This document shows, in pieces, positions 2,764 to 23,989 of a DNA stretch of 64,000 nucleotides. Numbering within the stretch: the first letter of the stretch is position 1; every line of letters begins with the position of its first letter. Source of the DNA: Clostridiales bacterium. GTDB taxonomy: Bacteria; Bacillota; Clostridia; Christensenellales; Borkfalkiaceae. The notes beneath the pieces were generated by a model. The model saw nothing but the letters and a program-made list of their open reading frames with translations, was not told where the DNA came from and did no database searches. Where the stretch lies: positions 1-64,000 of the forward strand of contig JAFLVO010000004.1 in NCBI GenBank assembly GCA_022508245.1, given 5' to 3'. The translations under genes were made by a program, and so were the position numbers.

Positions 2764-3123
2764 ATGCTTTCAAAATGCGAAAACGAGGTGATGACCGCCG
2801 TATATGATTTGTGCGACGGAACGGAGAGCTGCCTTATCTCCCACCTCGATATAATGTCGGTGCTGCCCGCCAAGCGCCGCTACAGTGAAGAAAGACTTGA
2901 AGAAATACTTTTAAATTTGAAAAACGACGGATATTTCGACCTGATTTTGTCCGAGAGAAAGGGCGAAAAGATGTACGTCATAAACCTAAAAGAGAGCGGC
3001 TTTTCATTCAAAAGGCAAAAAAATCAGCAGAAAAGGGATATAGAATTTAAAATTCTGCTCGCATTTGTCGGCGCGGTTGCAACCTTTATATTCGGACTTA
3101 TATTAAAAGCGTTATTCGGTTAG
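2764..3123 (+). CDS. Winged-helix-like, tail-anchored small protein (paralogue 2)
   Basis: 119 aa. It has the same architecture as the preceding gene: an N-terminal helical region, 'SEERLEEILLNLKNDGYFDLILSERKGEKMYVINL' reading as helix plus two-stranded wing, a basic linker (KRQKNQQKRD), and a terminal membrane helix (ILLAFVGAVATFIFGLILKALFG). It starts directly after the upstream TAG, so the two are translationally coupled and probably act together, perhaps as a membrane-tethered heterodimer (inference). The stop codon touches the start of repeat copy R1. Function unknown. Confidence 0.72.
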   Translation: MLSKCENEVMTAVYDLCDGTESCLISHLDIMSVLPAKRRYSEERLEEILLNLKNDGYFDLILSERKGEKMYVINLKESGFSFKRQKNQQKRDIEFKILLAFVGAVATFIFGLILKALFG

Positions 3124-3312
3124 TTCACAAAAATTAAAAACTATTATGCGTTTTCAATTTTTCGTGATTTCGGGAACTATGTCCCCCTTGACGTGATTAT
3201 TAAGAGCAAACATTTATTAAATCACGTCAATTCCCCTCCACGGAGGCGAATGTATTCGCAAATTGAGTGTGGCGCCCAAAAGCGTGGTTTTGGGCGCCAC
3301 CGTTAAAATATT
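3122..3312 (+). repeat. R element, short form, copy R1
   Basis: Structured repeat starting at GTTCACAAAAATTA, directly on the stop codon of the upstream gene. Helices visible: P0 (TCACAAAAATT / AATTTTTCGTGA), P1 (GGGAAC/GTCCCC, one mismatch), P2 (TTGACGTGATT / AATCACGTCAA, 11 bp perfect), P3 (GCGAA-tgta-TTCGC), P4 (GGCGCCCAAAA / TTTTGGGCGCC, 11 bp perfect). Conserved linkers are AGCAAACA in the P2 loop, TTCCCCTCCAC after P2 and CAAATTGAGTG after P3. The 14-bp 5' sequence recurs at 3322-3335, just past the 3' end. Confidence 0.85.
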
Positions 3313-3318
3313 AGAACC

Positions 3319-3377
3319 GTTCACAAAAATTATACGCTATATATGCGCGCGACCCGATTTTTTCGGGTCGCGCGCAT
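3319..3377 (+). other. Second R 5' motif followed by a 14-bp perfect hairpin
   Basis: A second copy of the R-element 5' motif (GTTCACAAAAATTA) is followed by an AT-rich stretch and a 14-bp perfect inverted repeat: ATGCGCGCGACCCG at 3343-3356 and its complement at 3364-3377, loop ATTTTTT. No T-run follows on either strand, so it is not a standard terminator. The rest of the 3124-3479 gap holds R1 and the promoter of the next gene. Confidence 0.7.
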
Positions 3378-3417
3378 CAATATTATATATTGAAGTTAAA
3401 TTTGGAATTGTTTTTAT

Positions 3418-3446
3418 TTGCAATTTGCAAAGACTTTTGATATAAT
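3418..3446 (+). promoter_or_regulatory. Promoter for 3480 gene
   Basis: TTGCAA at 3418-3423, 17-bp spacer, TATAAT at 3441-3446. This gives a leader of about 27 nt before the ATG at 3480. The same TTGCAA-17-TATAAT spacing precedes tRNA-Val at 59.3 kb. Confidence 0.7.
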
Positions 3447-3479
3447 ATCTTAAAAATATTTATTTTTCAGGCAAAAAGT

Positions 3480-4778
3480 ATGAAACACAAGAAAGGCTTA
3501 ATAGTTTTTACAGCTCTGTTTTCGGTTGTCGTATTCCTTTCAATATTCCTGATGATGTGGTTTTGGGGCGACAGCTACGAAGATTTTAACGACAGCTTCC
3601 GCGAGGAGATTGCTATTCCCGGTCTCGACGAGGGTGCATGTCCCCAAGGACTTGCAACCGCCAATCACAAGTTTTACAACAAGGACGGCGAGCTTGAGTA
3701 CGTTTTAGACGCGGAGGGCAACCCCACTAATCAGGAAAAGAAGCAGGAATACTACTTTATTTCGGCTTACTTTAAGGACAAGCCCTCGCGTATATACGTT
3801 ACGGGCAGAACGAGCGGGTATCTTGGCTACGTTTCTCTCTGCCGTGACGGCGAACCCTTTTACGGCCACGTGGGCGGAATTGCCACCAACGGTACGGTAT
3901 TCTGGATTGGCTCGGAGAGCACCGTTTACTGCATAAAGCGCACCGTAAACGACTACGACAATGCTGTTGACGAAATTGTCCGACTGAGCATTTCAAAGAG
4001 TGTACTCGACCTTCAAGGCGAAAACACTACCTCTTTTAAGGTAAACGGCAGTGCGTCGTTTGTCAACTATTACAGGACGTCGTCAAGCTCCAACACCTCT
4101 ACCGAGAGGCTGTACGTGGGCGAGTTCTACCGCGCAGGCAATTACGAGACACCCGAAAACCACCACATTACCCTTCCCGACGGCAGCGTGAACAGGGCGT
4201 TTATGTACGAGTACAATATCTCCTCCTCCACCGAGTACGGTCTTTCGGTAATTTCCAGCAGCGATAAACTCAACAAACAGGTGCCCAAAGTGCAGAGAAT
4301 TTACTCCATTCCCGACAGAATTCAGGGCGTGGCAAGAGTTTCGGGCAGCGACGAAGGCTCGAGAGGAGACGTTTTGATTCTCTCGCAGAGCTACGGACTT
4401 GTAAACTCCGAAATTATGCTGTATAACTTCAAGACCATTGAAAAGAGCGGAAATTACGTATCTTACTCCACTATCGACAGCAAAGGCTTTGAGTACCCCG
4501 ACGTAACTTACGGTAACGTAAGACCCTACTACGATACAAGCGTCAACGTATATTACGTTTACGGAAACAGCCGTTCAAAGACTGTCGACGCAAAGGGCAA
4601 CACCATTTACCCCTCCTTCATAAGGACGTACAGCCTGCCCTCTATGTCCGAAGGGCTTGCAGTCAGCTCGGACGACAGAGTCAATATCCTGTTTGAATCT
4701 TCGGCTAAAAAATATAAGGCTTTTGTAAGACAGCCTCTTGACAAGGTCTACAGCTTCAGACCTTCACATGTAAAATAA
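3480..4778 (+). CDS. Membrane-anchored extracellular protein, probable beta-propeller
   Basis: Unknown function, 432 aa. A basic N-terminus (MKHKKG) and one hydrophobic segment (LIVFTALFSVVVFLSIFLMMWFW) act as an uncleaved signal anchor. The remaining ~400 residues are polar and rich in Tyr, Ser and Asp, with many short beta-strand blocks such as 'SRIYVTGRTSGYLGYVSL', 'TVFWIGSESTVYCI' and 'YYDTSVNVYYVYGNS', like a repeated-blade propeller. 'VPKVQRIYSIPDRIQGVARV' suits the same fold. It is a single transcription unit with its own promoter and terminator. The propeller assignment is inference from strand periodicity. Confidence 0.7.
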   Translation: MKHKKGLIVFTALFSVVVFLSIFLMMWFWGDSYEDFNDSFREEIAIPGLDEGACPQGLATANHKFYNKDGELEYVLDAEGNPTNQEKKQEYYFISAYFKDKPSRIYVTGRTSGYLGYVSLCRDGEPFYGHVGGIATNGTVFWIGSESTVYCIKRTVNDYDNAVDEIVRLSISKSVLDLQGENTTSFKVNGSASFVNYYRTSSSSNTSTERLYVGEFYRAGNYETPENHHITLPDGSVNRAFMYEYNISSSTEYGLSVISSSDKLNKQVPKVQRIYSIPDRIQGVARVSGSDEGSRGDVLILSQSYGLVNSEIMLYNFKTIEKSGNYVSYSTIDSKGFEYPDVTYGNVRPYYDTSVNVYYVYGNSRSKTVDAKGNTIYPSFIRTYSLPSMSEGLAVSSDDRVNILFESSAKKYKAFVRQPLDKVYSFRPSHVK

Positions 4779-4790
4779 ATATTTGACGAC

Positions 4791-4822
4791 AAATTCCTTG
4801 CTACTTTGCGCAAGGAATTTTT
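4791..4822 (+). terminator. Rho-independent terminator
   Basis: AAATTCCTTG (4791-4800), 10-nt loop, CAAGGAATTT followed by TTTC. It lies 13 bp after the stop of the 3480 gene. Confidence 0.7.
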
Positions 4823-4853
4823 CATAATCTAAGTCACGCAGTAGAATATTATA

Positions 4854-4886
4854 AAAGGCGGTTGCGCAGGTTGCGCAACCGCCTTT
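4854..4886 (-). terminator. Hairpin terminator of the M18 aminopeptidase gene
   Basis: 15-bp inverted repeat: AAAGGCGGTTGCGCA at 4854-4868 and its complement at 4872-4886, with a short loop. It lies just past the stop of the convergent gene at 4898 and ends in CCTTTTAT on the minus strand. Confidence 0.65.
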
Positions 4887-4897
4887 AAATTTATTTT

Positions 4898-6277
4898 TTA
4901 TTTGCAAAATGCGAGGCAGGCAAGATAAAGTGAATAAATATCTGCTTTTGAAATGAGCTCGTAGGGAGCATGCATGGAGAGTACGGGAACGCCTACGTCT
5001 ACCGTATCTATGCCGAGATTTGCAATATATTTTGCAACGGTGCCGCCTCCGCCGATGTCGATTGCGCCAAGCTCGCCCGTCTGCCAGATAACGCCGTCCT
5101 TATCCAGAATATCGCGGATATAGCCCATAAATTCTGCGTGGGTGTCGTTGGTTGAATTCTTACCACGCGAGCCCGTGTACTTGGAAACTGCCGCACCGCA
5201 GGAGATAAAAGTAGAATTGCTCTTTTCGTATACCGAAGCAAACGCGGGGTCGTAGCCGGCAGTAACGTCAGCCGAGATGCACTTTGAGTTGTATCTTACT
5301 TCGATGGGGTTTGCGCCAAGTGAATTTGCGATTGTGTCGATAACGTCGCAGATGACCTTGCTCTGCATACCTGTGGTACCGTCGCTGCCCACCTCCTCTT
5401 TGTCGGCGAATACCGCAATAACCGTGTGGGGAGAGCTTGCGTCCATATCGAAAATCGCACGCATTTCGGGATAAGCGCACACCTTGTCATCGTGTCCGTA
5501 AGCGGAAATAAGCGCCTTATCAAAGCCTACGTCGCGCGCCTTGCCTGCGGGAACGAAGCAAAGCTCCGAGCACTGCAAGTCGACTTCCGTCATACCGTAT
5601 TTTTTGTTTAAGAGCTTGAGTATTGCGTTCTTTATGCTTTCCTTGTCCTTTTCGTCCTCTTCGCCGACTGCGGGAAGTCCGCCTATGATTGCGTTGAGGC
5701 TTTCGCCGTCAATTACCTTTGCCGCGGGCTTTGTAATCTGTTCGCCCGAAAGGTGGGGAAGAAGGTCTGTTATGTAAAAAATAGGGTCGTCCTCGTCCTC
5801 GCCTACGCACACTTCCTGACATTTCCCGCCGGGGAGCATAACCACGCCGTGCAACGCAAGGGGCAGAGCCGTCCACTGGTACTTTTTAATTCCGCCGTAA
5901 TAATGCGTCTTTAAAAAGCACATTCCCGAGTCCTCGAACATGGGGTTGGGCTTTAAATCGAGGCGGGGCGAATCTACGTGAGCAACCATTATTCTAACAC
6001 CGTGCTCGGCAACACTCTCCTTACCAACTCTTATTAAGAACACGTTTTTATTCCTGTTGATGAAGTAGCGCTTATCCCCCGCTTTCAGCTTTTCCGAGAA
6101 GGAAAAAGGCTTGAATCCGTTCTCTTCGGCAAGCTTTTTGGCGGTTATAGCCGCGTCGCGCTCGGTCTTGGAATTGTCGAGGAACTTTTTATATCCCTCG
6201 GAAAATTCGTAAATTTTTTCAAGTTCTTTCGCGTCAGCCTGTTTATAGACGTTTTTACGTTCGTATTTTAGATCCAT
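4898..6277 (-). CDS. M18 family aminopeptidase (aspartyl aminopeptidase-like)
   Basis: Dinuclear zinc aminopeptidase that removes N-terminal, often acidic, residues from peptides in the cytoplasm. M18 signatures are visible: VAHVDSPRLDLKPNP near residue 90 (zinc-binding His), the central SAYGHDDKVCAYP, ADKEEVGSDGTTGM near residue 295 (catalytic Glu and zinc ligand), and the C-terminal VPVLSMHAPYELISKAD (zinc His). Length 459 aa is normal. Start ATG at 6277 has AGGAG upstream. It is monocistronic with its own hairpin terminator. Substrate preference cannot be read from the sequence. Confidence 0.93.
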   Translation of the reverse strand: MDLKYERKNVYKQADAKELEKIYEFSEGYKKFLDNSKTERDAAITAKKLAEENGFKPFSFSEKLKAGDKRYFINRNKNVFLIRVGKESVAEHGVRIMVAHVDSPRLDLKPNPMFEDSGMCFLKTHYYGGIKKYQWTALPLALHGVVMLPGGKCQEVCVGEDEDDPIFYITDLLPHLSGEQITKPAAKVIDGESLNAIIGGLPAVGEEDEKDKESIKNAILKLLNKKYGMTEVDLQCSELCFVPAGKARDVGFDKALISAYGHDDKVCAYPEMRAIFDMDASSPHTVIAVFADKEEVGSDGTTGMQSKVICDVIDTIANSLGANPIEVRYNSKCISADVTAGYDPAFASVYEKSNSTFISCGAAVSKYTGSRGKNSTNDTHAEFMGYIRDILDKDGVIWQTGELGAIDIGGGGTVAKYIANLGIDTVDVGVPVLSMHAPYELISKADIYSLYLACLAFCK

Positions 6278-6452
6278 ATAATTACTCCTTTAAATTAGTA
6301 GCAAATTTTCAGCCGTATGTTATTATACATATCATAATTAAAATTGTCAATTAATAATTTGCTTACTATTTTTCTTTGCCTCATAAAAATGACGGAAAAG
6401 TTCAAAAAACCCAAATCGCATTACAAAATATGAAAATATTTATTATTACTTA

Positions 6453-6481
6453 TTTACTATTTATAAATAATGTGATATAAT
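6453..6481 (+). promoter_or_regulatory. Promoter giving a near-leaderless message for 6491
   Basis: TTTACT (6453-6458), 17-bp spacer, TATAAT (6476-6481). The ATG at 6491 is 9 nt beyond the -10 box, so the predicted transcript begins 0-3 nt before the start codon. The rest of 6278-6490 is AT-rich and I see nothing else in it. Confidence 0.65.
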
Positions 6482-6490
6482 AGACAAGAT

Positions 6491-7012
6491 ATGTATTCAA
6501 AAAGCGGAACAGCAAAAAAAATAGCGGTCTTGTCCCTTTTGACGGGTCTGAGCCTTATAATGTTCATAGTAGAAAACCTGCTTCCTCCCCTATTTATTCC
6601 GGGGGCGAAATTGGGACTTGCAAATATTTTTTCCTTTGCCGCGCTTATATTATACTCCCCCGTTGAGGCGTTTTTGGTGCTTACAGCCCGCACTGTTCTG
6701 GGTGCGGTGTTTGCGGGGAATTTATCCGCTCTTTTATACTCGTTCACGGGCGGGGCGGTGTCTATGGCGGTCTCCTCCGTCCTGATATACACCCTTTACC
6801 CCAAAATTTCGGTTATGGCGGTATCCGTTGCGGCGGCCGTACTTCATAATATTACGCAGAATATAATTTTCGTGCTATTGACAGGTTCTGCTTTATTATT
6901 CGGTTATATGCCCTACCTTGCGCTTATAGGAATTTTCTCCGGCGGGGTAGTCGGCGGAATTACTCTTGTTATTTTCAAGGGAATACCAACTAAATTACTA
7001 ATGGAGGTTTGA
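6491..7012 (+). CDS. Gx transporter family / HepS1-like membrane protein
   Basis: 173 aa with five or six membrane helices. It matches the Gx transporter (Heptaprenyl_synt, PF07456) family, whose members recall ECF S components and in Clostridia sit beside rnf or NusG-II genes. Visible features: VENLLPPLFIPGAKLGLANI (the conserved P-G-A-K-LGLAN motif), AFLVLTARTVLGAVFAGN and GGAVSMAVSSV. It ends 3 nt before rnfC, with GGAGG of rnfC inside its last codons, so it belongs to the rnf operon. The annotated 'heptaprenyl diphosphate synthase component I' name is doubtful; small-molecule uptake is likelier. Confidence 0.82.
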   Translation: MYSKSGTAKKIAVLSLLTGLSLIMFIVENLLPPLFIPGAKLGLANIFSFAALILYSPVEAFLVLTARTVLGAVFAGNLSALLYSFTGGAVSMAVSSVLIYTLYPKISVMAVSVAAAVLHNITQNIIFVLLTGSALLFGYMPYLALIGIFSGGVVGGITLVIFKGIPTKLLMEV

Positions 7013-7015
7013 TAT

Positions 7016-9563: not shown

Positions 9564-9564
9564 G

Positions 9565-10862: not shown

Positions 10863-10865
10863 ACA

Positions 10866-13565: not shown

Positions 13566-13576
13566 ATCAAGCCTTT

Positions 13577-13850
13577 AAGTTTAGGAGAGCCGAACCCGCA
13601 AGGTTTTTGAAATAAAATCTTTGTAATACTTTGTCGTTCGGACTTGCCGTATGTTCAATACGCCTGCGTCCAAACTCCTCGTCTTGCTTTGATTTTATGG
13701 CAAAAACTGCCTTGCACCCTAAGTAAGTAGATTTCGATGATTTTTGTGCGGATTGCGCGCAGTAATACTGAACGTATTTCAAGCGCAAGCCGTGCGGAAA
13801 GCGCGAAATATCCACCCTTAGGGCTTCGCGAGTTCGGCACTCCTAAACTT
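13577..13850. mobile_element. MITE-like element with imperfect terminal inverted repeats
   Basis: 274-bp unit bounded by inverted ends of 27 bp with about four mismatches: AAGTTTAGGAGAGCCGAAC at 13577-13595 and AAGTTTAGGAGTGCCGAAC on the other strand from 13850. No transposase is encoded. The right end lies inside the apbE frame and supplies its final codons and stop. A solo end-like sequence (TTTAGGAGAGCCGAA) recurs at about 62933 between the fumarase genes. Non-autonomous transposition is inference; no target duplication was resolved. Confidence 0.6.
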
Positions 13851-14999
13851 ATCATAAGTGAATACGGCGTATTTATCGGTTAATTTGCTCTCTATAAAGC
13901 TTATTGCCCTGTCCCTGCCCATAGCCATAATTGCGGTCGTGATTGCGTCGTTTTCGGCGGCGCTGCCGCCCGCAACCGTAGACGACATTATTCCCGTCTG
14001 AACGGGCTTACCCGTAGCGGGGTCGATAATATGGCAGTATCTTACGCCGTTTAGCGTATAATAATTTACGTAGTCCGCGCTCGTAGATACGCAGATATCG
14101 TGCACGGGAAAAGACATACAGTGAGTGGAATTTCTGCGCGGTTCGATAAGCGCTAAAGTATAGTCTCCCTCGCGGCAGTGCTTTTTAAGCGCAACACTGC
14201 TGCCGCCGAAGTTGAACATACCGTATTCAAAGCCGTATTCTGAAAACATTTCATTTATTATATCGGTGACGTAGCCCTTGCCTATACCGCCCAAATCTAC
14301 TGCAAGCGAATAGTGTGTTTCCCCGACTTCCACCGTCTTTTGTGGCTTCTTTATGAAATATCCGTCCTCGCTTTCTATAAGCTCTATCTCCGCAAAAGCT
14401 GTGGAAAGCTCGGTATATTTTGCGATATCCTCGTCTTTGGGAAGGACTTCGGGCTGTTCCTTTTTATCAAACCCGTACGCGCTTACGCTGTAATACACAG
14501 CGGGGTTGTAGTAGCCGTCGGTAAATTCGTACATCTTATATGCGAGCGACATTACCGTATAGAAGGTTTCGTCCACCTCCACCGTTTCGCCCGCCTCCGC
14601 ATTGTTGAACAAGTGCGCACACGAATTTTCTTTGTTCACGGACAGGCTGTTTTCTATTTTTGTAAGAGTTTTTTGGACATTTTTTGAAAACTCTTCGAAT
14701 TTCTGCGTGTTTTCGTCTTTGGAAAAGTCGGAGGCAACCGTTAAAATTGCATCGGTGTTCATAACGCCTTCAAAGACCTTATTTTTGGAAGTGAACCCCT
14801 TTGCATTTTCAGCCTTGCCGCCCGAAAAGCTGTTGTCCGCAGGTATAACCTGCTCAACATGGTAATTCGGGGCAAGAACGGTAAACTCAGCGCTTTGGAT
14901 ATTGGTGTATATGTAATAATCTTTGAGCTTTTGCGTACAGCCCGAAAGCGCGAATATCCACACTACCGCGCACAGCAATCCCGCGACAAATTTTTTCAT
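13818..14999 (-). CDS. apbE: FAD:protein FMN transferase, lipoprotein
   Basis: Transfers FMN from FAD onto Thr in S/T-GAT motifs of extracytoplasmic flavoproteins; the nearby RnfD and RnfG are the obvious targets. A signal peptide with lipobox (VVWIFALSGC) places it on the outer membrane face. ApbE motifs: DLGGIGKGYVTDIINEMF (near residue 245), FNFGGSSVALKK, DPATGKPVQTGIMSSTVAGGSAAENDAITTA with the catalytic Asp/Thr region. The open frame extends to 15053, but ATG at 14999 gives the signal peptide. The last eight codons (RSAELAKP) come from the MITE-like end. Confidence 0.93.
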   Translation of the reverse strand: MKKFVAGLLCAVVWIFALSGCTQKLKDYYIYTNIQSAEFTVLAPNYHVEQVIPADNSFSGGKAENAKGFTSKNKVFEGVMNTDAILTVASDFSKDENTQKFEEFSKNVQKTLTKIENSLSVNKENSCAHLFNNAEAGETVEVDETFYTVMSLAYKMYEFTDGYYNPAVYYSVSAYGFDKKEQPEVLPKDEDIAKYTELSTAFAEIELIESEDGYFIKKPQKTVEVGETHYSLAVDLGGIGKGYVTDIINEMFSEYGFEYGMFNFGGSSVALKKHCREGDYTLALIEPRRNSTHCMSFPVHDICVSTSADYVNYYTLNGVRYCHIIDPATGKPVQTGIMSSTVAGGSAAENDAITTAIMAMGRDRAISFIESKLTDKYAVFTYDKFRSAELAKP

Positions 15000-15096: not shown

Positions 15097-15123
15097 TTCG
15101 TGAACTTATTCCGTTCTGAGGGC
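15097..15123. repeat. 27-bp direct repeat of the ABC gene 3' end (left copy)
   Basis: Exact match to 15315-15341, which covers the last codons and stop of the ABC gene plus the first bases of repeat R2. The two copies flank R2 and look like a long target duplication or a recombination scar. Confidence 0.8.
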
Positions 15124-15323
15124 TCTTTTACTCGCATTTAAATTATTTACGGCGCAAGGAAGGTTTCCTTCCGCCGGCGCACCCAATTTGTGCATACCTG
15201 CACCTGAGCGAGGTGAATTCCCGAAATTTTACATTACGAGAGCCATTAAGATTGCGGGAAGAGGGCGAGAAGCCCTCAAATCACGGAAATTATCGCCGTC
15301 ACTGCGACGAAAATTTCGTGAAC
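15124..15323 (-). repeat. R element, short form, copy R2
   Basis: Read on the minus strand from 15323, directly after the ABC gene stop. P0 TCACGAAATTTTCG / CGATAATTTCCGTGA, P1 GAGGGC-ttct-CGCCCTC, P2 TTCCCGCAAT / ATTTCGGGAA (one mismatch), P3 GTGCA-ggta-TGCAC, P4 GGAAGG-aaa-CCTTCC inside GGCGC/GCGCC. The bases differ from the other copies but pairing is kept. Flanked by a 27-bp direct repeat. Confidence 0.85.
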
Positions 15324-18300
15324 TTATTCCGTTCTGAGGGCGACAACGGGGTCCTTCTGCGCCGCCGCAGACGCGGGGATAAGTCCCGAAATGAGGGTTA
15401 AGCCAATACTTATTCCTATCATTATAAACGCCTGCCAGATGGGCAACGCCGCAATTGTGTAGATACCCGCAAGTGCGCCTATTATAAGATTTAAAATGAG
15501 CGAAAGCAAGTAGGTTACGCCGATTCCCACGGCTCCCGCCGCAAGCCCTATGATAAAGGTCTCGGCGTTGAACAGCCTCTTTATATCCTTCTTTCTTGCG
15601 CCGACCGCACGCAAAATTCCGATTTCCTTTACGCGCTCTACAACCGAAACGTAGGTTATAATTCCTATCATTACGGTTGACACGACGAGGGATAGCGCAG
15701 TGAACGCAATGAGCGCAACGGTTATCATCTCTATCATAGTGTTAATCATTGCAATTATCAGCCCTACCGTGTCGGTATAGGTTATTTTATCCTTGACTTC
15801 AAGATGCTCTATCGTGGACTCTTCGCCCGCAAAATTTGTATATTTGTAAGGGTCGCCCGCCTCGCACATTTTATTCCATGCATCGAGATAGGCGGTGACG
15901 GTGTCCTTTGAGTTGAAGTCGACGGGGTACATATAAATTGCCGTTGGAAGTCTGCTTCCGCCGACCATTGCCGCCGTGATTTCGGTTGACGCTCCGCCAG
16001 TTACGTTGCCTATTATCGTCGCCATCATGCTTGCGCCCGTATCAATGGAACCCTGCTTGGTTTCCAGAACGTAGAAGTCTCCGTCGTCCGTTTCATCCAC
16101 GTAATAGTAGTCGACATATGAGGGAACCTCGTCGAGCTTGCCTTTTTCCGTTTCGTTTATATACTTGACAATTTGGCTCTCCGCCTCCGTGTCTAAAATA
16201 TAGTTTGTGAGGGCGTTTGTATAGTAGAGTCCCGTTTCAAGACAGCCGTAGGAGACGGACTCCTTCTTTTGAAGTATCATTTTGACGCCCATTTCCACTT
16301 CGCCGACGTCTTTTCCGAACGCAGGCAGAGTTATATCGTCTACGCCGTCTTGCTTTATCGTGTACGCGGTTGTGTATGCGTTTGCAACGAACCCCTCTTT
16401 TGTTTCGTCATCTTTGGGCTTGCGTAAAGTGCTGAACATCATTCCCATACCAAGCGAATTAAGCAAGGTTTTAAGCTCCTCGTCGCCCTGTTCGCGAGCT
16501 TGCAGTATCATCAGTGTCAGACCTTGCGCATATTCCGGAGAATCGTTGCCGCTCATCTTGAGAATTGACGCTATGAGCTCTCCTACTTCCCCGTCAGAAA
16601 GATACTTGGGTTTAAATTTCTGTTTGGTGTAAACGCTGTCGTTGGGGTAGTAGGTAAACTTGAACTTATCGGTGCTGTTGCCTACAATTTCTGCATAGGG
16701 TATTCCTTTTTTGCCGACGAGATTACTTTCAGACCCCTTGTCTTTGCTGACGCCCGCAAAGGCGTAGTCCAAGAATTCGTCCTCAGTAAAGAATCCGTAT
16801 TCGGCAAACATTAAGTCGTTGAACTGATGGTCTTCGACAACCATAATAAGCGTACTCTTATCGTTGAACAGCTCTTTAAGGTATTCGTCAGTATAGCCCG
16901 AAGTGACCGAATTGCCGTTATAATCTACGGCGAGTACATCGTACTGCGACATTACGTAGTTGAAGTTATCGGGAACTTCATTAAAGGTTCGAACGGTGGA
17001 AATCATACTTCCCCACTGTTTGTATTCCTCTACGTGCGAAAGCACATTTGAGTACATGGACCTTATTGCCGCAACCGACATTTTTCCGCCGTTGAAATCG
17101 TAGGATTCGCCCTCTTTGAAAGGGAATTTGCGCGAATTGACGTCCTTACTGACGGTGAAATTCGTATAAATATTGTTGTTTACGTTGAACGCATAGTCGA
17201 ACTGGACGACGTTTACGCTCTCTTCGGGAATTTTTGAAATATAGTCCACGTAGGCTTCGGAGATGTTGTTCGTCCTTTCAAACCCCTGTGCAAAGGTGCC
17301 CAAGGTATCAAGCAGCGAGCGCACGTAGACCTTGTCGCCCTTTTTAAGTTTATTTAAATCAACCTTCGTATTGGACATCGAAAGTGTCATAAGCGAGGAA
17401 AAATCGTAGCTGCTCTGCGTAATAGCGACGGGATTGCCCGAGAGCATATCATTTTCCATTTCGTTTATGTAGCCGTGCACGCCGGCGGAGATTGCAAGCA
17501 CCATAGAAACGCCTATAATGCCTATACTTCCCGCAACGGATACCATTGCGGTGCGCCTGCCCTTGGATAAAAGATTTTTTAAAGACAACCCGAACGCCAT
17601 GCCCACCGACATTGACGACTTCTTCTTTCTGCCCTTGTTTTTAACAACGGACGCCTCATTTTCTGCGGGCGCCGCCTCCGCGCTGTCCGTTTTCTTTGCA
17701 GGCTCTTCGATTCCGTCGAAGGGCTTTGTGTCGTCAGTAACTTCGCCGTCTAAAAGGCGTATAATTCTGGTTGAATATTTTTCGGCAAGCTCGGGATTGT
17801 GCGTAACCATAATTACAAGCCTGTCTTTGGCAATCTCTTCCAAAAGCTCCATAATCTGAACGCTCGTCTTGGAATCGAGTGCACCCGTAGGCTCGTCGGC
17901 AAGAACGATTTCGGGGTCGTTTATAAGAGCGCGCGCTATCGCTACGCGCTGTGCCTGACCGCCCGAAAGCTGGTTGGGCTTGTTTTTGAGCTTATCCGAA
18001 AGTCCGACCTTTTCAAGCGCCTCTATCGCCCTTCTCCTTCTCTCGTCCTTCGTAACGCCCGAGATTGTGAGAGCGAGCTCGACGTTTTGCAGTATGGTCT
18101 GATGGGGAATTAAGTGATAGCTCTGAAAGATAAAGCCTATGCTGTGGTTGCGGTAGGTGTCCCAGTCGCCGTCCTTATACTCCTTGGTGCTCCTGCCCTC
18201 TATCACGAGGTCGCCCGAGGTGTACTTGTCAAGACCGCCGATGATGTTCAAAAGTGTGGTCTTTCCGCAGCCCGACGCGCCGAGTATCGACACGAATTCG

Positions 18301-18392
18301 CTTCTGCGGAATTTTAAGCTCACACCTTTTAAAGCATGAACTGTAGTGTCCGCAACCTTATAGTCCTTTTTAATATCGATTAGTTCAAGCAT
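15324..18392 (-). CDS. ABC transporter, ATPase fused to FtsX-type permease
   Basis: 1022-aa fusion of the LolD/MacB type. Residues 1-225 are the ATPase: GASGCGKTTLLNIIGG (Walker A), LSGGQAQRVAIARAL (signature), EIVLADEPTGALDS (Walker B) and VMVTHNPELAEKYS (switch His). A linker of about 40 residues precedes the first membrane helix (KGRRTAMVSVAGSIGIIGVSM), then a ~500-residue extracytoplasmic domain, then three C-terminal helices with the FtsX core (VVERVKEIGILRAVGARKKDIKRLF). MacB-type proteins are mechanotransmission pumps rather than classical transporters. Substrate unknown. Repeat R2 begins at its stop codon. Confidence 0.92.
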   Translation of the reverse strand: MLELIDIKKDYKVADTTVHALKGVSLKFRRSEFVSILGASGCGKTTLLNIIGGLDKYTSGDLVIEGRSTKEYKDGDWDTYRNHSIGFIFQSYHLIPHQTILQNVELALTISGVTKDERRRRAIEALEKVGLSDKLKNKPNQLSGGQAQRVAIARALINDPEIVLADEPTGALDSKTSVQIMELLEEIAKDRLVIMVTHNPELAEKYSTRIIRLLDGEVTDDTKPFDGIEEPAKKTDSAEAAPAENEASVVKNKGRKKKSSMSVGMAFGLSLKNLLSKGRRTAMVSVAGSIGIIGVSMVLAISAGVHGYINEMENDMLSGNPVAITQSSYDFSSLMTLSMSNTKVDLNKLKKGDKVYVRSLLDTLGTFAQGFERTNNISEAYVDYISKIPEESVNVVQFDYAFNVNNNIYTNFTVSKDVNSRKFPFKEGESYDFNGGKMSVAAIRSMYSNVLSHVEEYKQWGSMISTVRTFNEVPDNFNYVMSQYDVLAVDYNGNSVTSGYTDEYLKELFNDKSTLIMVVEDHQFNDLMFAEYGFFTEDEFLDYAFAGVSKDKGSESNLVGKKGIPYAEIVGNSTDKFKFTYYPNDSVYTKQKFKPKYLSDGEVGELIASILKMSGNDSPEYAQGLTLMILQAREQGDEELKTLLNSLGMGMMFSTLRKPKDDETKEGFVANAYTTAYTIKQDGVDDITLPAFGKDVGEVEMGVKMILQKKESVSYGCLETGLYYTNALTNYILDTEAESQIVKYINETEKGKLDEVPSYVDYYYVDETDDGDFYVLETKQGSIDTGASMMATIIGNVTGGASTEITAAMVGGSRLPTAIYMYPVDFNSKDTVTAYLDAWNKMCEAGDPYKYTNFAGEESTIEHLEVKDKITYTDTVGLIIAMINTMIEMITVALIAFTALSLVVSTVMIGIITYVSVVERVKEIGILRAVGARKKDIKRLFNAETFIIGLAAGAVGIGVTYLLSLILNLIIGALAGIYTIAALPIWQAFIMIGISIGLTLISGLIPASAAAQKDPVVALRTE

Positions 18393-18472
18393 AAAATATC
18401 TCTTTTAGTTTATTTGAATACTAAACCGTATAGCAGTATCTACTGTGATTATACAATAGATACGGCACTGTG

Positions 18473-20116
18473 TCAACACATTTTTGCGTTATGAAGCCTG
18501 TTTAACGCCCTTTCCTTGCCTAAAATTCCCATAATGGTGCATAAATCGGGAGAGTTTGGACTGCCCGCTATGGCAATACGGAGTATTTCGGCAACGTCGG
18601 AGACGTTTCCTTTGTAATTTTCGGGATTTTGCTTATATTCGCTCATCTCGGCGGCAAAACCGCAACCTGCGGCAACTTCCTTTACCTTTGCAAACCAAGC
18701 CGAGTTGTCGTCGTTCTCGTCGTAGACATTTGCAAAGTCGGAAAGCACTTTGTTTACAACCGCACTCTCATATCTGTATGCGTATTGAGGCGAAAAAGTG
18801 TCGTCAAAGAAATAGTCCAAAAGCCTTACGCCCTGCTCTGCACGCTCTATATCCTTTCTGCGCTTCTTTCCGCCCGTGCCCATTACAAGGTTTAAAATTT
18901 TAATAAGATATTCTTTATCCTCAAAGTGCTTTTTATCCTTTTCGGTGCCGAATTCGTCCACCCAGCATTTTAAGAAATCGTAGCACTCCTCGGCGGAAAG
19001 GCGGGAAATTTCGGTCTTTGACATATCGTTTAATTTATCGAGGTCAAAGAGCGCCCCGCTCTTGCCCATTTTATCTATCTTGAATTTGAAGTCCTTATAG
19101 TCCCCGTCAGGGTTCTTTAACAGCCACTCCTCGAAGTTGGAGTTTAAAACCGTCATAAGGTATTTTACGACCGCCTTGGGGAAGTAGCCCGCCTTTCTGT
19201 AATAGTCGAGGGAGAGCTCGGGGTCCTTTCTCTTTGACAGCTTGCGCTTGTTGCCTCCGTCCATCTTCATTAGCGACGAGGTGTGCGCGTACTTGGGCGG
19301 CTTGAAGCCGAGCGCTTTATGAAGCTCCAAATGTATGGGCAGGCTGGAAAGCCACTCCTCTCCGCGTATAACAAGCGTTGTGCGCATAAAGTGGTCGTCT
19401 ATTGCGTGGGCAAAGTGGTAGGTGGGTATGCCGTCCGACTTTAAAATTACCACGTCCTGGTCGTTTTCGGTTACGGTAATATCCCCCTTGATTGCGTCGC
19501 GGAAGGTAATTTTATTTGAGATATCCCCCTCCGACTTAAGGCGGATAACGAAAGGTCTGCCCTCGTCTAAATTCTTATAAATCTGCTCCTCGGAAAGGTT
19601 TCTGCACACCGCAAACTTGCCGTAGTAGCCGGGAGTTAAGTTGTTTGAAGTCTGCTCCTCGCGGATTGCGGTCAGCTGATCCTCTGTGCAGAAACAGGGA
19701 TAAGCCTTGCCCTCCTCTATCAGCTTTCTCGCAAAGGCGCGGTAAATTTCCGCGCGTCTGCGCTGATAGTAGGGTCCGTATTTGTTGAGGGGCGAGTCAA
19801 TCTCCGCACCCTCGTCAAAGTTGATGTCGAAGTATTTAAGACTTCTTATAACGCTTTCAACCGCGCCGTCCACCTTTCTTTTTTCGTCGGTGTCCTCTAT
19901 ACGCAGGTAGAACACGCCGCCCGTGGTGTGCGCCGCCCTTTCGTCGGCAAGCGCAGAATACAGGTTGCCGAGGTGTATAAAGCCCGTTGGCGAGGGTGCA
20001 AGACGGGTAACCTCCGCTCCCTTGGGAATATCGCGGGGCGGATAGATGTTTTCATATTCTTCGGGGTTCAAAAGTTCTTCGGGTATCAGCCTTTTTGCAA
20101 GTTTTTTCAAGTCCAT
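18473..20116 (-). CDS. gltX: Glutamate--tRNA ligase
   Basis: Class I aminoacyl-tRNA synthetase that charges tRNA-Glu. Motifs: RLAPSPTGFIHLGNLYSALA (HIGH region as HLGN, near residue 45), DTDEKRKVDGAVESVIRSL, and KRKLSKRKDPELSL (KMSKS region as KLSKRKD, near residue 295). Length 547 aa is slightly longer than the usual ~480-500 aa because of an N-terminal extension of about 35 residues and insertions in the anticodon-binding part. ATG at 20116 is 3 nt from the stop of the upstream regulator, so the two are probably co-transcribed. No T-box leader is visible. Confidence 0.93.
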   Translation of the reverse strand: MDLKKLAKRLIPEELLNPEEYENIYPPRDIPKGAEVTRLAPSPTGFIHLGNLYSALADERAAHTTGGVFYLRIEDTDEKRKVDGAVESVIRSLKYFDINFDEGAEIDSPLNKYGPYYQRRRAEIYRAFARKLIEEGKAYPCFCTEDQLTAIREEQTSNNLTPGYYGKFAVCRNLSEEQIYKNLDEGRPFVIRLKSEGDISNKITFRDAIKGDITVTENDQDVVILKSDGIPTYHFAHAIDDHFMRTTLVIRGEEWLSSLPIHLELHKALGFKPPKYAHTSSLMKMDGGNKRKLSKRKDPELSLDYYRKAGYFPKAVVKYLMTVLNSNFEEWLLKNPDGDYKDFKFKIDKMGKSGALFDLDKLNDMSKTEISRLSAEECYDFLKCWVDEFGTEKDKKHFEDKEYLIKILNLVMGTGGKKRRKDIERAEQGVRLLDYFFDDTFSPQYAYRYESAVVNKVLSDFANVYDENDDNSAWFAKVKEVAAGCGFAAEMSEYKQNPENYKGNVSDVAEILRIAIAGSPNSPDLCTIMGILGKERALNRLHNAKMC

Positions 20117-20119
20117 TTT

Positions 20120-20752
20120 TCATTCCTCTCTTTTCTTTTCTCTGCGTGGAATTTTATTTGCAAACCAGCGGTAGGAAAACCACAAAATTATAAGTAGTTC
20201 AAATACCGCCGCAACTATATAGAGAATATACATTTTTCTGAAATCGGTAAACGTTTTCACGAAAATGTGACATATAAGCGCAAACGACCAGAGTATTGCC
20301 GAGGCGGAGAGCGCTTGAGTAGCCCTGTTGCCCCATTTTGCCGAAAAGACCATCCATACTATCGCCATCGGAAGAGGTGCAACGACAAAGGTAAGCCACG
20401 CGTAATTTTCCGTTCTCGTTATAAAGTAGAAAATCATAAACACACCCATTGCCACGAACCATACAAGTACGGTTGACATAGCCACAATAAACGCACGCAT
20501 GCCGTTTATTCTCTTTTTGGGCTGAATTCGGGGTTCCAAGCTGTCGGCTTTTACTATATCGTCAAGGCTGACTCCGAAAATTTCCGAAAGGCGCAAAAGT
20601 ACTCTAAGGTCGGGCACCGCCTCGCCACGCTCCCACTTGGAAACGGCTTTGTCGGAATAGTTAAGCATCTCGGCAAGCTGAAGCTGCGTCAGCTTTGCTT
20701 TGGTACGCAATGCTATCAAATTTTTGGCAATATTGCTCTTTAATTCACTCAT
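20120..20752 (-). CDS. XRE-family regulator with membrane domain
   Basis: 210 aa. Residues 1-65 are a helix-turn-helix of the HTH_3 family (NLIALRTKAKLTQLQLAEMLNYSDKAVSKWERGEAVPDLRVLLRLSEIF). Residues ~85-200 hold four hydrophobic segments (RAFIVAMSTVLVWFVAMGVFMIFYF and others), ending in a basic tail. The plan matches membrane-bound XRE regulators of Firmicutes. It is immediately upstream of gltX. A perfect palindrome in its own promoter region suggests autoregulation. Confidence 0.85.
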   Translation of the reverse strand: MSELKSNIAKNLIALRTKAKLTQLQLAEMLNYSDKAVSKWERGEAVPDLRVLLRLSEIFGVSLDDIVKADSLEPRIQPKKRINGMRAFIVAMSTVLVWFVAMGVFMIFYFITRTENYAWLTFVVAPLPMAIVWMVFSAKWGNRATQALSASAILWSFALICHIFVKTFTDFRKMYILYIVAAVFELLIILWFSYRWFANKIPRREKKREE

Positions 20753-20839
20753 ATTCTCTTTTTACCCTTACGGATATCAACCTCTTCAGACGTAATAATT
20801 CGGGTCGAATACCCTTATCAGCTGTTATTGACTATATTC

Positions 20840-20884
20840 TACCACTCTACCGCATAAAAAGTCAAACTCTACTGTGAGTAGAGT
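20840..20884 (-). promoter_or_regulatory. Operator palindrome and promoter of the 20120-20752 gene
   Basis: ACTCTAC-tgtga-GTAGAGT at 20866-20884 is a perfect 7-bp inverted repeat. On the minus strand it runs straight into TTGACT, 18 nt and TAGAAT, so a bound protein would cover the -35 box. A further half-site (ACTCTACC) lies at ~20844. The remainder of 20753-21086 holds no gene that I can see. Confidence 0.6.
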
Positions 20885-21086
20885 GTGAAATTTTAGCAGT
20901 AGAATTAAAAAAATATGCAGTATAGTGTCGTTTTTAAACTGTGGAGCAAAAAAAGACAAAAGTAGGTTGAAATTTTTACGCTTGGGCTAATAATATTATT
21001 GTAGACGCAAAACTGCGGTTTTAAGTTCTGTTTTGCAAAAATCTATGATTTATTGACCCCGCTTGCGGGCCATGCATAGGAGATTT

Positions 21087-22031
21087 ATGAGAAGCTTTGA
21101 TATATTCGTAGACTCGGCGGCTAATATTCCCGACGAGCTCGTAAAAAAACATAATATTACTGTTATCCCCTACACCTGTACGGTAAACGGCGTTGAAAGG
21201 CTGTGCTATGAAAAGGATATGCCTTTTCAGGAAACGGCTAAAAAATTCTATGCCGAAATCGCCGCAGGTGCGGACGTTAAGACATCTCTTGTAAGTAAAG
21301 AGCGCATAATCGAAGCCGTTACCCCCTCCGCCAAAGCGGGCAGAGATATTATAATGGTCACTATTTCTTCGGGAATAAGCGGCACGTACAATCAGGCAAT
21401 AGAAGCCAAAAAGTACATTGAGGAAAACTTTAAAGGCTGTTCCATGTACGTCCTCGACGGAGCAAACGCAAGTCTTGGCGAGGGTCTGCAGGCGCTCAAA
21501 ATTGCCGATTTAAAGGACATGGGCGAGAGCGCGGAGAGCTGTGCGGCATGGCACGCCGAAAACGCATACAAAATTAACAGCTATTTTACGGTTGCCGACT
21601 TGAAGTATTTAAAGAGGAGCGGAAGAATTTCCACCACCCTTGCCATTGCCGGCACTATTCTCAATATTAAGCCCATTTTAAAGGCGGACGGAAGCGAAAA
21701 CGCTAAAATTGTATTCCACAGCAAGGAGCGCGGCAGGAAGCGCGCAATTTCCGCCATTGCCGAAATGTTTAAAGAGCGCGCAATTTCGCCCGAGAGCAAC
21801 ACCGTTGCAATTGCGCACGCGGGCTGCGAGGATGACGCGCTTGCCCTTGCCGAGCTTATTAAACAAGCCGGTGCAAAGGAAATAATTATCGAGTACTACG
21901 ACCTTTGCACCGTTTCCCACGTTGGACCGGGAACGCTCGCCCTCTTCTTCTACGGCGCCGATAGAAAGGCTCCCGCAGCGGAAAAGGTTCAAAAAAAAAC
22001 GGGAAAAGTATCCGTCGCACACAACATCTGA
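21087..22031 (+). CDS. DegV family fatty-acid-binding protein
   Basis: DegV proteins (FakB family) bind a fatty acid and present it to the kinase FakA for phosphorylation. Signatures: DIFVDSAANIPDELVKKHNI at the N-terminus, TISSGISGTYNQAI near residue 105 (fatty-acid carboxylate Ser/Thr), YLKRSGRISTTLAIAGTILNIKPIL near residue 180, and HVGPGTLALFFYG at the end. 314 aa. The frame opens at 21063, but AGGAGA precedes the ATG at 21087. A terminator follows; no fakA is in the window. Confidence 0.9.
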   Translation: MRSFDIFVDSAANIPDELVKKHNITVIPYTCTVNGVERLCYEKDMPFQETAKKFYAEIAAGADVKTSLVSKERIIEAVTPSAKAGRDIIMVTISSGISGTYNQAIEAKKYIEENFKGCSMYVLDGANASLGEGLQALKIADLKDMGESAESCAAWHAENAYKINSYFTVADLKYLKRSGRISTTLAIAGTILNIKPILKADGSENAKIVFHSKERGRKRAISAIAEMFKERAISPESNTVAIAHAGCEDDALALAELIKQAGAKEIIIEYYDLCTVSHVGPGTLALFFYGADRKAPAAEKVQKKTGKVSVAHNI

Positions 22032-22067
22032 ACAATAACTAAATTTGACAATATCCTTCTGTATATG

Positions 22068-22108
22068 GAAAGCCGCCCGCGCTTTATGTGCGGACGGCTT
22101 TCTCTTTT
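22068..22108 (+). terminator. degV terminator
   Basis: AAAGCCGCCCGC, short loop, GTGCGGACGGCTTT then CTCTTTT. Repeat R3 begins 3 nt later. Confidence 0.8.
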
Positions 22109-22110
22109 AT

Positions 22111-22640
22111 GTTCACAAAAAATGACTGCTATTCTGCGTTTACGGGCATCCGACCCCAACAGACACATTTTTACGGGCAAACTATCGGTCTATCCACTCA
22201 AACCGTCGTTCGGCGTGTGTCCAACACGCTTTCGCGCCGTTTCGTGCGTCTATCCTCGCTATTTTGCTCCGTAAAAACGCTACGCGCCTGAAACGGTTTG
22301 TTTTGCGTGATTTTACAAGGCAAACGAGCGAAGTTGTAGTGAACCCTACTACGAGCGAGTTTAACGCAGGAAAAGCCCAAAACAAGCCGTTATCAGGTGT
22401 ATCGGTTTGGGTTGAATACCCGTTAATTTTTCGTGAGTTTTGGGAACTAAGTTCCCCTTGTCGCAATATTTAAGGGCAAACAAATATAGAATTGCGACAA
22501 TTCCCCTCCACTGCGCGAGCGAAGCGCTGCTTTGCACACCTTATTGTAGAAAATTCTGATGTTCGAGTGCAAAGGCGTAGGCATACGCAAATTGAGTGCG
22601 CGAGAAAAAAAGCGTGGTTTTTCCTCGCGCCGTGAAATAT
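22111..22640 (+). repeat. R element, long form, copy R3
   Basis: Begins GTTCACAAAAAATGACTG and ends near TAAAAATAA. About 300 nt are inserted in the P0 loop; the insert is itself bounded by ACGGGCAT and ATACCCGT, and its first part matches R0. After it come TTTTTCGTGA, P1 GGGAAC-taa-GTTCCC, P2 TTGTCGCAAT / ATTGCGACAA, P3 GCGTA-ggca-TACGC and P4 GCGCGAG / CTCGCGC. A second insert of ~60 nt bounded by TTTGCAC/GTGCAAA lies before P3. No protein gene is supported in 22032-22662. Confidence 0.82.
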
Positions 22641-22662
22641 TTTAAAAATAAATTAGCACAGT

Positions 22663-22875
22663 TTAGCGTTGTAAACAAAGTATTTCATTAGCGTCCAATT
22701 CAAGAACCGCACAAAGGTTTGCAAAAGTTTCAATTGTTGGCATTTTATTCTGATAAAGATATTGTCCTATTGCCTGATGACATACCCCTACTCTTTTAGC
22801 TAATTCGGTATGCGTTATTCCGCTTTGCTTTATCGCTTCTTGTAGCTTTTCTCTAATTTGATTAAGTTCTATCAT
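22663..22875 (-). CDS. Small XRE-family repressor
   Basis: 70 aa, essentially one helix-turn-helix (KQSGITHTELAKRVGVCHQAIGQYLYQNKMPTIETFANLCAVLEL). It is phage-repressor sized with no second domain. It faces the 84-aa gene at 22994; the ~118-bp gap between them carries TTGCTAGC-type half-sites that overlap the divergent promoter. The pair looks like a compact regulatory module, perhaps a mobile remnant or toxin-antitoxin-like unit (inference). Confidence 0.82.
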   Translation of the reverse strand: MIELNQIREKLQEAIKQSGITHTELAKRVGVCHQAIGQYLYQNKMPTIETFANLCAVLELDANEILCLQR

Positions 22876-22920
22876 TTTTTACTCCTCATAATAATTATGC
22901 CACCAATGATAGCAAAATAC

Positions 22921-22983
22921 TTGACTTGCTAGCATTGATAGCATATAATTTATATTGCTAATACAGCTAGCAATATAAGTAAG
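22921..22983 (+). promoter_or_regulatory. Promoter with inverted operator half-sites
   Basis: TTGACT (22921-22926), 17 bp, TATAAT (22944-22949). Half-sites TTGCTAGC at 22926-22933 and GCTAGCAA at 22976-22983 are inverted about the start region, with related TGATAGCA copies nearby. They probably bind the XRE protein of 22663-22875 (inference). Confidence 0.65.
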
Positions 22984-22993
22984 GATAAAAATT

Positions 22994-23248
22994 ATGAATT
23001 CAACAATAGAAGAAATTTATTATAATATATGTTTTGATATAAAATCAAGCAAGGAATATCTGAAAGAACAGGACAAATATGTTACACTGATGGATAAATT
23101 AAGCGAAAATTTGCCGGATGAATTTAAGGACAGCATAAATCAATTAGACCTGATTACGGGCGGCATTGAAGCCGAAAGAGCCAGAATCTGTTTTATAGAG
23201 GGGTTTAAAATTGGTATGCGTACGGCGATAGAGGCTTTAAAGTGCTAA
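22994..23248 (+). CDS. Small helical protein of unknown function
   Basis: 84 aa, acidic and mostly helical by pattern (IEEIYYNICFDIKSSKEYLKEQDKYVTLMDKLSENLPDEF), ending in GFKIGMRTAIEAL, a motif seen in small DUF6809-like proteins of Clostridia. Preceded by AAGGAT and its own operator-controlled promoter. It is transcribed away from the XRE gene and ends at a bidirectional terminator. Confidence 0.7.
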   Translation: MNSTIEEIYYNICFDIKSSKEYLKEQDKYVTLMDKLSENLPDEFKDSINQLDLITGGIEAERARICFIEGFKIGMRTAIEALKC

Positions 23249-23275
23249 AAGAGCACGGCGGGCGCCGTGCTCTTT
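23249..23275. terminator. Bidirectional terminator
   Basis: AAAGAGCACGGC-ggc-GCCGTGCTCTTT between two convergent genes. Confidence 0.8.
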
Positions 23276-23765
23276 AATGTCTTTTGTCGTAGGCGAAGGC
23301 TTCCTTCTTTTCCTTTAAAAGATACTCTAAAAACTTTATGCACCCCTCTTCTATCTCCTTATAGGATTTTTCGAAGTTCAGAGTGTACCACGGGTCGGCT
23401 ATGTCGCTGTTGTCGCCCGTAAAAGCACGGAGCTTGAAGATTTTTTCACTGCAACTGTTGCCGGCTATACTTAAAACGTCAAAGAGGTTGTTCGTATCCA
23501 TTACTAGGATATAATCGTTATTTAAAATATCCCGTTTGGAAATCTGTTTTGCAATATGTTCGCCCGGAATGTTGTGTCTGTCGAGCGCGCGCTTTGCGGG
23601 CGGATAGACGGAGTTACCTTCCTCGCAGTCGGACGTGCCGAAGCTTGAAATATTAAAGCTTGAGCTAAGCCCGCGCTCTTCGACAAGTTTTTTGAATATC
23701 AGCTCCGCCATAGGGGAACGGCAGATATTGCCAAGACATACAAATGCTACGCTTATCATCTTCAT
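23274..23765 (-). CDS. Low-molecular-weight protein tyrosine phosphatase
   Basis: 163 aa. The catalytic P-loop is at the N-terminus: VAFVCLGNICRSPMAE gives C-L-G-N-I-C-R-S with nucleophile Cys near residue 11 and the conserved Arg. The general-acid Asp lies in DIADPWYTLNFEKSY (DPW). It dephosphorylates tyrosine-phosphorylated proteins in the cytoplasm; targets cannot be read here. No tyrosine kinase lies nearby. ATG at 23765 has no strong ribosome binding site; MISVAF two codons later is an alternative. Confidence 0.92.
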   Translation of the reverse strand: MKMISVAFVCLGNICRSPMAELIFKKLVEERGLSSSFNISSFGTSDCEEGNSVYPPAKRALDRHNIPGEHIAKQISKRDILNNDYILVMDTNNLFDVLSIAGNSCSEKIFKLRAFTGDNSDIADPWYTLNFEKSYKEIEEGCIKFLEYLLKEKKEAFAYDKRH

Positions 23766-23802
23766 TACCTTTTGCTCTTACATATAAGTTCTTTAAATAT
23801 AA

Positions 23803-23989
23803 AACGCTTTACAGCGCAAGGAGGGTTTCCCTCCGCCCGCGCACTTAATTTGCGCATACCTGCGCCTCAGTTGAAGTGAATGCCCGCAATTAAATTATTG
23901 TTTGCCCTTATAGATTGCGGGCAGAGAAACTTAGTTTCTAAAAATCACGAAAAATACAGCTCGCAGAATAGAGTTGTATTTTTGTGAAT
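23803..23989 (-). repeat. R element, short form, copy R4
   Basis: Read on the minus strand from 23989, about 11 nt after the terminator of the CNNM gene. P0 TTCACAAAAATACA / TGTATTTTTCGTGA, P1 AGAAAC-taa-GTTTCT, P2 TGCCCGCAAT / ATTGCGGGCA, P3 GCGCA-ggta-TGCGC, P4 GGAGGG-aaa-CCCTCC. The P2 loop carries GGGCAAACA and P3 is followed by CAAATTAAGTGCGC, as in the other copies. Confidence 0.85.

Follow-up and report, generated by a model that had tools for sequence, protein, structure and literature searches.

A dispersed, covarying hairpin repeat in a Borkfalkiaceae genus: a candidate small mobile element often placed at gene 3' ends

In the first 64,000 nucleotides of contig JAFLVO010000004.1 (the window) from a Clostridiales bacterium of the family Borkfalkiaceae (GCA_022508245.1) there is a structured repeat, here called the R family, whose helices keep their pairing while the bases that form them turn over. 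Its four copies in the window, R1 to R4, are among 55 matches to a covariance model of the element body in the window's own genome (G000; 1.66 Mb, 97.6% complete), and the copies are short, non-coding, dispersed and intergenic, like small mobile repeats. With middling confidence, we read the R family as non-autonomous small mobile repeats that carry structure at the DNA level, are moved by a putative trans-acting factor and are reshuffled by recombination. An earlier note, made from the window sequence, had placed R1 to R4 and given them common helices in a common order; alignments corroborated both points.

The unit, about 190-210 bp long, consists of a P0 hairpin, the helices P1, P2 and P3, a linker, P4 and an AT-rich tail. 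On the element strand P0 reads TTCAC(A/G)AAAATT - CTATTCTGCG - AATTTTTCGTGA, P1 reads GAGAAAC TAA GTTTCTC, P2 is TGCCCGCAAT, a loop with GGGCAAACA, then ATTGCGGGCA, and P3 is GCGAA/TTCGC, with TTCACTTCCACTGAG standing between P2 and P3. Unpaired motifs are conserved across the genus in the alignments read; the P2 loop carries GGCAAACA, the P3-P4 linker is AAATTGAGTG and the P4 loop is GCGTGG. Judged by eye, the element begins with TTCAC.. and finishes with ..TTTTAA, ends that are non-complementary, and no open reading frame (ORF) of at least 80 amino acids was found within R1, R2 or R4. The helices listed in the earlier note are all present, but its list missed the longest one, P0 (TTCAC...GTGA; 44 nt, e.g. 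3124-3167), which lies 5' of P1. Some of its letters also need correction by eye: the P1 stem GGGAAC/GTTCCC belongs to R3, while that of R1 is GGGAAC/GTCCCC with one mismatch, and P2 of R2, given as a perfect complement, holds one C-T mismatch. R3 is indeed a long copy, and owes its length to a miniature inverted-repeat transposable element (MITE) of about 283 bp in P0 and to an additional domain, about 60 nt long, 5' of P3. This optional domain was also read in L025 and L030 (in R3 at about 22513-22574), and nine model matches in G000 are long enough (191-197 nt) to suggest it.

Among the 55 matches in G000 the weakest has an E value of 4e-4 and one is a partial second unit; a blast search with R4 returned 47 matching pieces. 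P0-like hairpins numbered 54 in the G000 stretches examined, 32 of them with a body, and since the 22 bodiless ones include long-P3 copies, P0s from right flanks and chance matches, true solo P0s are few. Beyond G000, searches of related Clostridia of the kind the earlier note had proposed used stricter filters and scored few candidates per genome, so that weak matches can be lost; they found the element in 54 of 61 same-genus genomes (G000 included; seven had no match), and these 54 carriers, all in the genus itself, were the only ones among 101 relatives. An even draw across the order gave 19 positives in 395 genomes, from three genera of the same family and mostly weaker outside the element's own genus, and a draw across the class gave 4 in 391, again all in the family, so that neither draw yielded a match outside it. 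Candidatus Coproplasma (L118; Clostridia, Eubacteriales) is a more distant relative. With R4 as query no match was found in phages or plasmids, and 18 stretches of viral contigs with a 16-base motif gave no model match. Shorter or diverged relatives, some in tandem, occur in another genus of the family (L099-L105) and keep motifs like GCGCAAATTGxGTGCG and AAAAGCGTGGTTTT.

The pairing is strong and compensated. An alignment of 27 of 33 copies (A1; P0, body and short tail, trimmed to 186-191 nt), from which, as from alignment A2, R3, L008, L010, L013, L025 and L030 were omitted as bearing inserts or being truncated, folded in RNAalifold into 48 pairs, 35 of them with two-sided compensation. A larger alignment (A3) held 111 matches in 77 stretches, some of which overlap, and was reduced to 106 distinct rows by counting five repeats once. 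Under a 30-pair model, 95.3% of its 3128 cells were paired, vs 74.9 +/- 0.4% in shuffles (0/500), with a covariation score of 0.551 vs 0.189; A3 is fitted to the model and its copies are related, which leans the result towards structure, but not by the observed margin. Two-sided changes were present in 29 of the 30 pairs, and sliding the partner by 1-3 columns lowered the paired fraction to 34.8-57.4%. Chance is thus excluded as the source of the pairing, and the earlier note was right that pairing rather than sequence is kept. Single copies also fold better than their shuffles (R4, z -4.18 as RNA and -5.66 as DNA; R1, z -5.15 as RNA). An isolated covarying pair in the P2-P3 linker (A1 columns 121/126; C-G 19, G-C 6, G-U 1, U-G 1, in 27/27 rows) closes a 4-nt TGAG-like stretch.

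The chemistry of the pairs differs among helices. Wobble is scarce in P1-P3 (13 G-U and 23 A-C among 1992 cells) and in P0 (7 G-U and 26 A-C among 815 cells of 62 hairpins), so that over P0-P3 combined G-U is rarer than A-C (20 vs 49 in 2807 cells). In 18 transfer RNAs (tRNAs) of these and related stretches, 27 of 381 cells were G-U (7.1%); the tRNA program marks allowed pairs only, and its zero A-C is no fair control. A3 columns 8-22 hold A-U 57 times, G-C 41 times and C-G five times, with no G-U, unlike the G-U route for compensatory change that part of PMC8794818 calls a common belief. The pair statistics lean towards DNA-level pairing in P0-P3, without amounting to proof in view of the G-U excess in P4 and the G-U states among close copies described below; of the two options in the earlier note, selection on RNA or on cruciform DNA, P0-P3 incline to the second and P4 to the first.

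Presence and absence were compared with a relative (G035; 93% complete, about 90% DNA identity to G000), with which Clostridiales bacterium HAN108 (L106) was treated as one genome, having the same placements. The comparison covered 54 copies, C14:60811 (the partial second unit) being left out and C15:59333 having no context, and because the stretches of G035 had been selected for containing copies of its own, shared sites were likelier to be found. Both flanks were present in G035 for 25 of the 54, of which 18 sites were filled in both genomes and seven showed a short gap. Among the seven, the G035 sites of R4 and C3:18389 are empty and have no P0, that of R1 holds half a P0, C13:6815 and C1:266141 look internally deleted in G035 from the P0 loop to P4, and C13:39204 and C15:39571 are of no clear type. 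Insertion polymorphism with target duplication was found at two further copies, taken from one stretch chosen for the purpose: C1:809859 and C1:810538 face clean empty sites in G035 that hold no P0, with target repeats of about 42 bp and about 8 bp. Conversely, a decayed solo P0 at window position 25432 stands opposite an element in L204. Moreover, direct repeats flanking the element reach a score of at least 18 in 12 of 81 copies vs 1.2% of 600 mismatched pairs. Most of these repeats consist of P0 and a few further bases; in four cases the repeat stops precisely where P0 meets the body, giving the arrangement P0-body-P0. Near-identical P0-body units lie in tandem 191 bp apart in L083, and two diverged units adjoin each other in L092.

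At sites that stay occupied, the element itself turns over. The 18 filled pairs are 70-99.6% identical, and their alignments show whole replacement between G000 and G035 at C13:34303, C1:308159 and C3:6140. Elsewhere replacement is partial, covering P0-P2 only (C1:416499), P1-P2 only (R3), P3-P4 (C1:164533) or P0 only (C14:60636). C3:25747 is alike on its left side and shortened on its right in G035, C15:57458 seems inverted between the genomes, C1:574154 differs evenly along its length, and C14:31407, in a two-unit region, is not interpretable. Judging from these patterns, recombination among copies, at sites that remain filled, is the best account of the turnover. Exchange does not always respect the helices, since the mosaic break at C1:164533 in G035 falls inside P2 and leaves a poor chimeric helix.

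The copies are placed preferentially at gene ends. Measured against reading frames of at least 90 open codons, P0 starts within -30..+5 nt of a same-strand stop codon in 25 of 46 copies of G000 and 10 of 27 of G035, seven of 53 and one of 28 copies respectively being omitted for lack of a recognised P0 start; at the tail end, whose border is harder to place, the mirror measure yields 4 of 46 and 3 of 27 copies. P0 itself contains the stop codon in seven G000 copies, and R3 and R4 directly follow terminator-like hairpins. The earlier note had all four window copies just 3' of a same-strand gene, which is true of R1 to R4 and becomes a bias across the genome: in a crude ORF call, the left neighbour is on the same strand for 30 of 48 copies and on the opposite strand for 18 (R1 wrongly among the 18), with five further copies lacking a call. 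Some copies with an opposite-strand neighbour lie just upstream of that gene's start. Copy orientation has no strand bias, as judged from local GC skew in 38 copies outside the window (18 leading, 20 lagging).

Under the reading of R elements as small mobile repeats, new copies would be inserted by a putative trans-acting factor that recognises folded DNA, single-stranded or cruciform, preferably just 3' of stop codons or adjoining terminator or P0 palindromes. Recombination between P0s may then give rise to tandem arrays, deletions and solo P0s, and ectopic gene conversion may swap segments between copies. The covariation would reflect a need for paired DNA hairpins, possibly aided by template-switch repair of palindromes. 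An element at a gene end would probably be carried in the 3' end of the messenger RNA (mRNA), where co-option may or may not follow.

Several observations weigh against this reading. No mobilising enzyme was found in the three families searched: the Y1 transposase (PF01797; 16 of 61 genomes) and reverse transcriptase (18 of 61) had no match in G000 or G035, and the TnpB zinc ribbon (PF07282) had none in any of the 61. Nor was there an autonomous partner with shared terminal inverted repeats, sought as these same families, and the element, with its ends taken by eye, has no classical terminal inverted repeats of its own. Clean insertions are few, and 18 of the 25 comparable copies are shared with G035, in a set of stretches that favours shared sites. 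P4 holds more G-U than A-C (86 vs 37 in 1136 cells), with most of the G-U in three columns, and in the body helices of 12 close copy pairs (identity at least 0.90) the G-U route is as frequent as double change (seven each, and five broken). Pair counts are not independent events, as copies share ancestry and exchange segments. Finally, divergence is lower within the element than in its flanks for seven of the 18 shared copies and not for the other 11. Five of the seven reach uncorrected P<0.05, and four of these P<0.01 (C1:821167, 0/180; C15:49552, 3/178; R2, 4/176 vs 10.6%; C13:72512, 1/197). This lower divergence could indicate that individual copies are under constraint and thus serve the host, and the better conservation of some copies relative to their surroundings leaves room for a host role at gene 3' ends.

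Such constraint is what one would expect if the hairpins were functional RNA, acting in mRNA 3' ends in stability, processing or attenuation, selected as RNA at each site and spread as useful or neutral copies. We consider this explanation unlikely. In its favour, P0 abuts stop codons in the same orientation, loops and linkers are conserved, folding as RNA is strong, sites remain filled despite replacement of their sequence, and the seven slowly diverging copies and the G-U surplus of P4 fit it as well. On the other side, about a third of the copies have an opposite-strand gene on their P0 side by the crude call, no terminator-like site turned up when 3000-3500, around R1, was scanned, a poor chimeric P2 is present at C1:164533 of G035, empty sites exist, and in P0-P3 G-U is rarer than A-C against its 7.1% share in tRNAs.

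Covariation may also arise with no selection at all, if DNA-polymerase template switching kept the palindromes perfect, gene conversion shuffled segments and the element were inert DNA; this we regard as quite improbable. Template switching is described in part of PMC8794818 as a maker and keeper of hairpins, and both the scarcity of wobble in P0-P3 and the mosaic breakpoint within a helix agree with it. Against it, P3, with arms of 4-5 bp (98.5% paired), and P2, whose arms lie about 24 nt apart (96.7%), match the remaining helices in pairing, conservation across the genus extends to unpaired motifs, and among close copies single changes are as frequent as double ones. To a similarly low degree we entertain a bacterial counterpart of short interspersed nuclear elements (SINEs), in which a structured non-coding unit would be copied to gene 3' edges by a putative trans-acting machine that leaves target repeats varying from about 8 to 48 bp, with selection on DNA hairpins of any sequence leading to largely wobble-free helix swaps.

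An IS200/IS605 or REP/RAYT-like element, in which a Y1 (HUH) transposase acts on single-stranded hairpins at a TTCAC target, is very unlikely. In its favour, the element has a hairpin at the 5' end, and (G)TTCAC recurs at the left border and often at the right one too. Against it, Y1 elements are not known to duplicate target repeats, which are duplicated here; the copies lack a strand bias, and the two genomes with the best matches, G000 and G035, are without the PF01797 seen in 16 of 61. That an RNA-guided nuclease uses the element as its guide or as a HEARO/omega-type RNA, the latter offered for comparison in the earlier note, is extremely improbable. Only the general look of a multi-helix fold in a dispersed element speaks for it. 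The family, which the note did not recognise either, has no Rfam match at gathering score and none up to E 1 in eight copies, none of the 61 genomes has PF07282 (no search was made for IscB), and R1, R2 and R4 hold no ORF of the length given above. A sub-threshold match of R1 to RF02862 (E 1.3e-4) was absent in the eight other copies and was rejected.

Table 1. R-family copies and related features in the window (window positions)
Feature	Position	Strand	Remarks
R1 P0 hairpin (TTCAC..CTATTATGCG..CGTGA)	3124..3167	+	first base directly after TAG stop of ORF 2764-3123
R1 body (P1-P4)	3168..3302	+	model match 3167-3302, 142.8 bits; alignments
R1 AT-rich tail	3303..3319	+	right boundary approximate
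Half P0 3' of R1 (left arm and loop)	3320..3347	+	probably a relic
R2 P0 hairpin	15281..15322	-	one base past TAA stop of ORF 15324-18392
R2 body (P1-P4)	15150..15280	-	model match 15150-15281, 96.6 bits; same site filled in relative G035
27-bp direct repeat GCCCTCAGAACGGAATAAGTTCACGAA flanking R2, left copy	15315..15341	-	
27-bp direct repeat flanking R2, right copy	15097..15123	-	
R3 P0 left arm and loop	22112..22138	+	
MITE 'I' (about 283 bp) inserted in R3 P0	22139..22426	+	ends approximate
R3 body with extra domain of about 60 nt 5' of P3	22437..22632	+	116 bits; domain at about 22513-22574
R4 P0 hairpin	23945..23988	-	just past terminator-like hairpin after ORF 24034-25299
R4 body (P1-P4)	23812..23944	-	140.4 bits; G035 site without element or P0
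Solo P0-like hairpin, no body	4785..4827	+	after ORF 3480-4778
Solo, partly decayed P0	25432..25476	+	relative G035 has full element at site
P0 one arm and loop	117..143	-	adjoins end of MITE 'I' (1-116, cut by contig start)

The MITE found in R3 (MITE 'I', with ends TTTACGGG../..CCCGTAAA) is present twice in the window (Table 1) and also in L166, L172, L176 and L180. It stands at the same P0-loop junction in several elements, as though an element already carrying it had gone on to spread; further copies are found outside P0. A second MITE of about 276 bp (window 13576-13851; inverted ends TAAGTTTAGGAGAG) has several copies in G000 and G035, and the 82-amino-acid ORF 13567-13815 within it is probably spurious. 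The window further holds an AdoCbl-II riboswitch (61698-61774, minus strand) at 38.5 bits, just over the gathering score of 36.5.

The R family offers a natural experiment: dozens of species carry it, with as many as about 50 copies in one genome, and pairing is kept while sequence turns over. It makes a direct test possible of covariation arising from DNA-level selection, template switching or gene conversion vs functional RNA. Covariation is usually taken as proof of a functional RNA, and screens for non-coding RNAs, going by covariation alone, could label the R family an RNA regulator. An active mobiliser, if found, would represent a novel bacterial route to target repeats of variable length.

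In the literature searched the R family is not described under any title. By analogy it appears to work like bacterial small mobile repeats, with YPAL and BOX the nearest when compared by description. The MIRU of mycobacteria are intergenic, follow the direction of the upstream gene, are inserted at stop/start sites and occur in tandem; the R element is likewise intergenic, often oriented with the upstream gene and in places tandem, and differs in its multi-helix covarying fold, of which we know no example in MIRU. REP/RAYT repeats, in the part of PMC3733652 that defines them, are palindromic, intergenic, high-copy repeats of 20-40 bp with GTAG or CGTC tags. R elements share the palindromes, the intergenic position and the high copy number, but, unlike these short tagged repeats, have no match to the associated Y1 family in G000 or G035. 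The BOX repeats of Streptococcus pneumoniae are presented in parts of PMC3049150 as dispersed, modular and structured, with tandem expansion and low current mobility, and frequently provide a gene's stop codon at its 3' end (36 of 58 overlapping coding sequences); their terminal inverted repeats are proposed to resemble those of ISSpn2, and 'compensatory' is absent from the main text of that source. The R element is equally dispersed, modular, structured, in places tandem and often found at stop codons, and differs, again by description and not by sequence, in having no boxA/B/C layout and no ISSpn2-like partner among the families searched. YPAL, as part of PMC2229807 describes it, measures 168 bp, has internal rather than terminal inverted repeats, makes target duplications of 3-26 bp and targets sites that span or adjoin dyad symmetry, and it is scored as structured in part of PMC2267715. 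Like YPAL and RU-2 of Yersinia and other enterobacteria, so far as these sources go, the R element has internal inverted repeats and a variable target duplication, and its targets adjoin dyad symmetry at sites examined, if not at every site. Unlike YPAL, with which it is likewise compared by description and not by sequence, it belongs to a different taxon, has five helices with strong compensation, often bears P0 on both sides, shows flanking repeats of up to about 50 bp and prefers stop codons.

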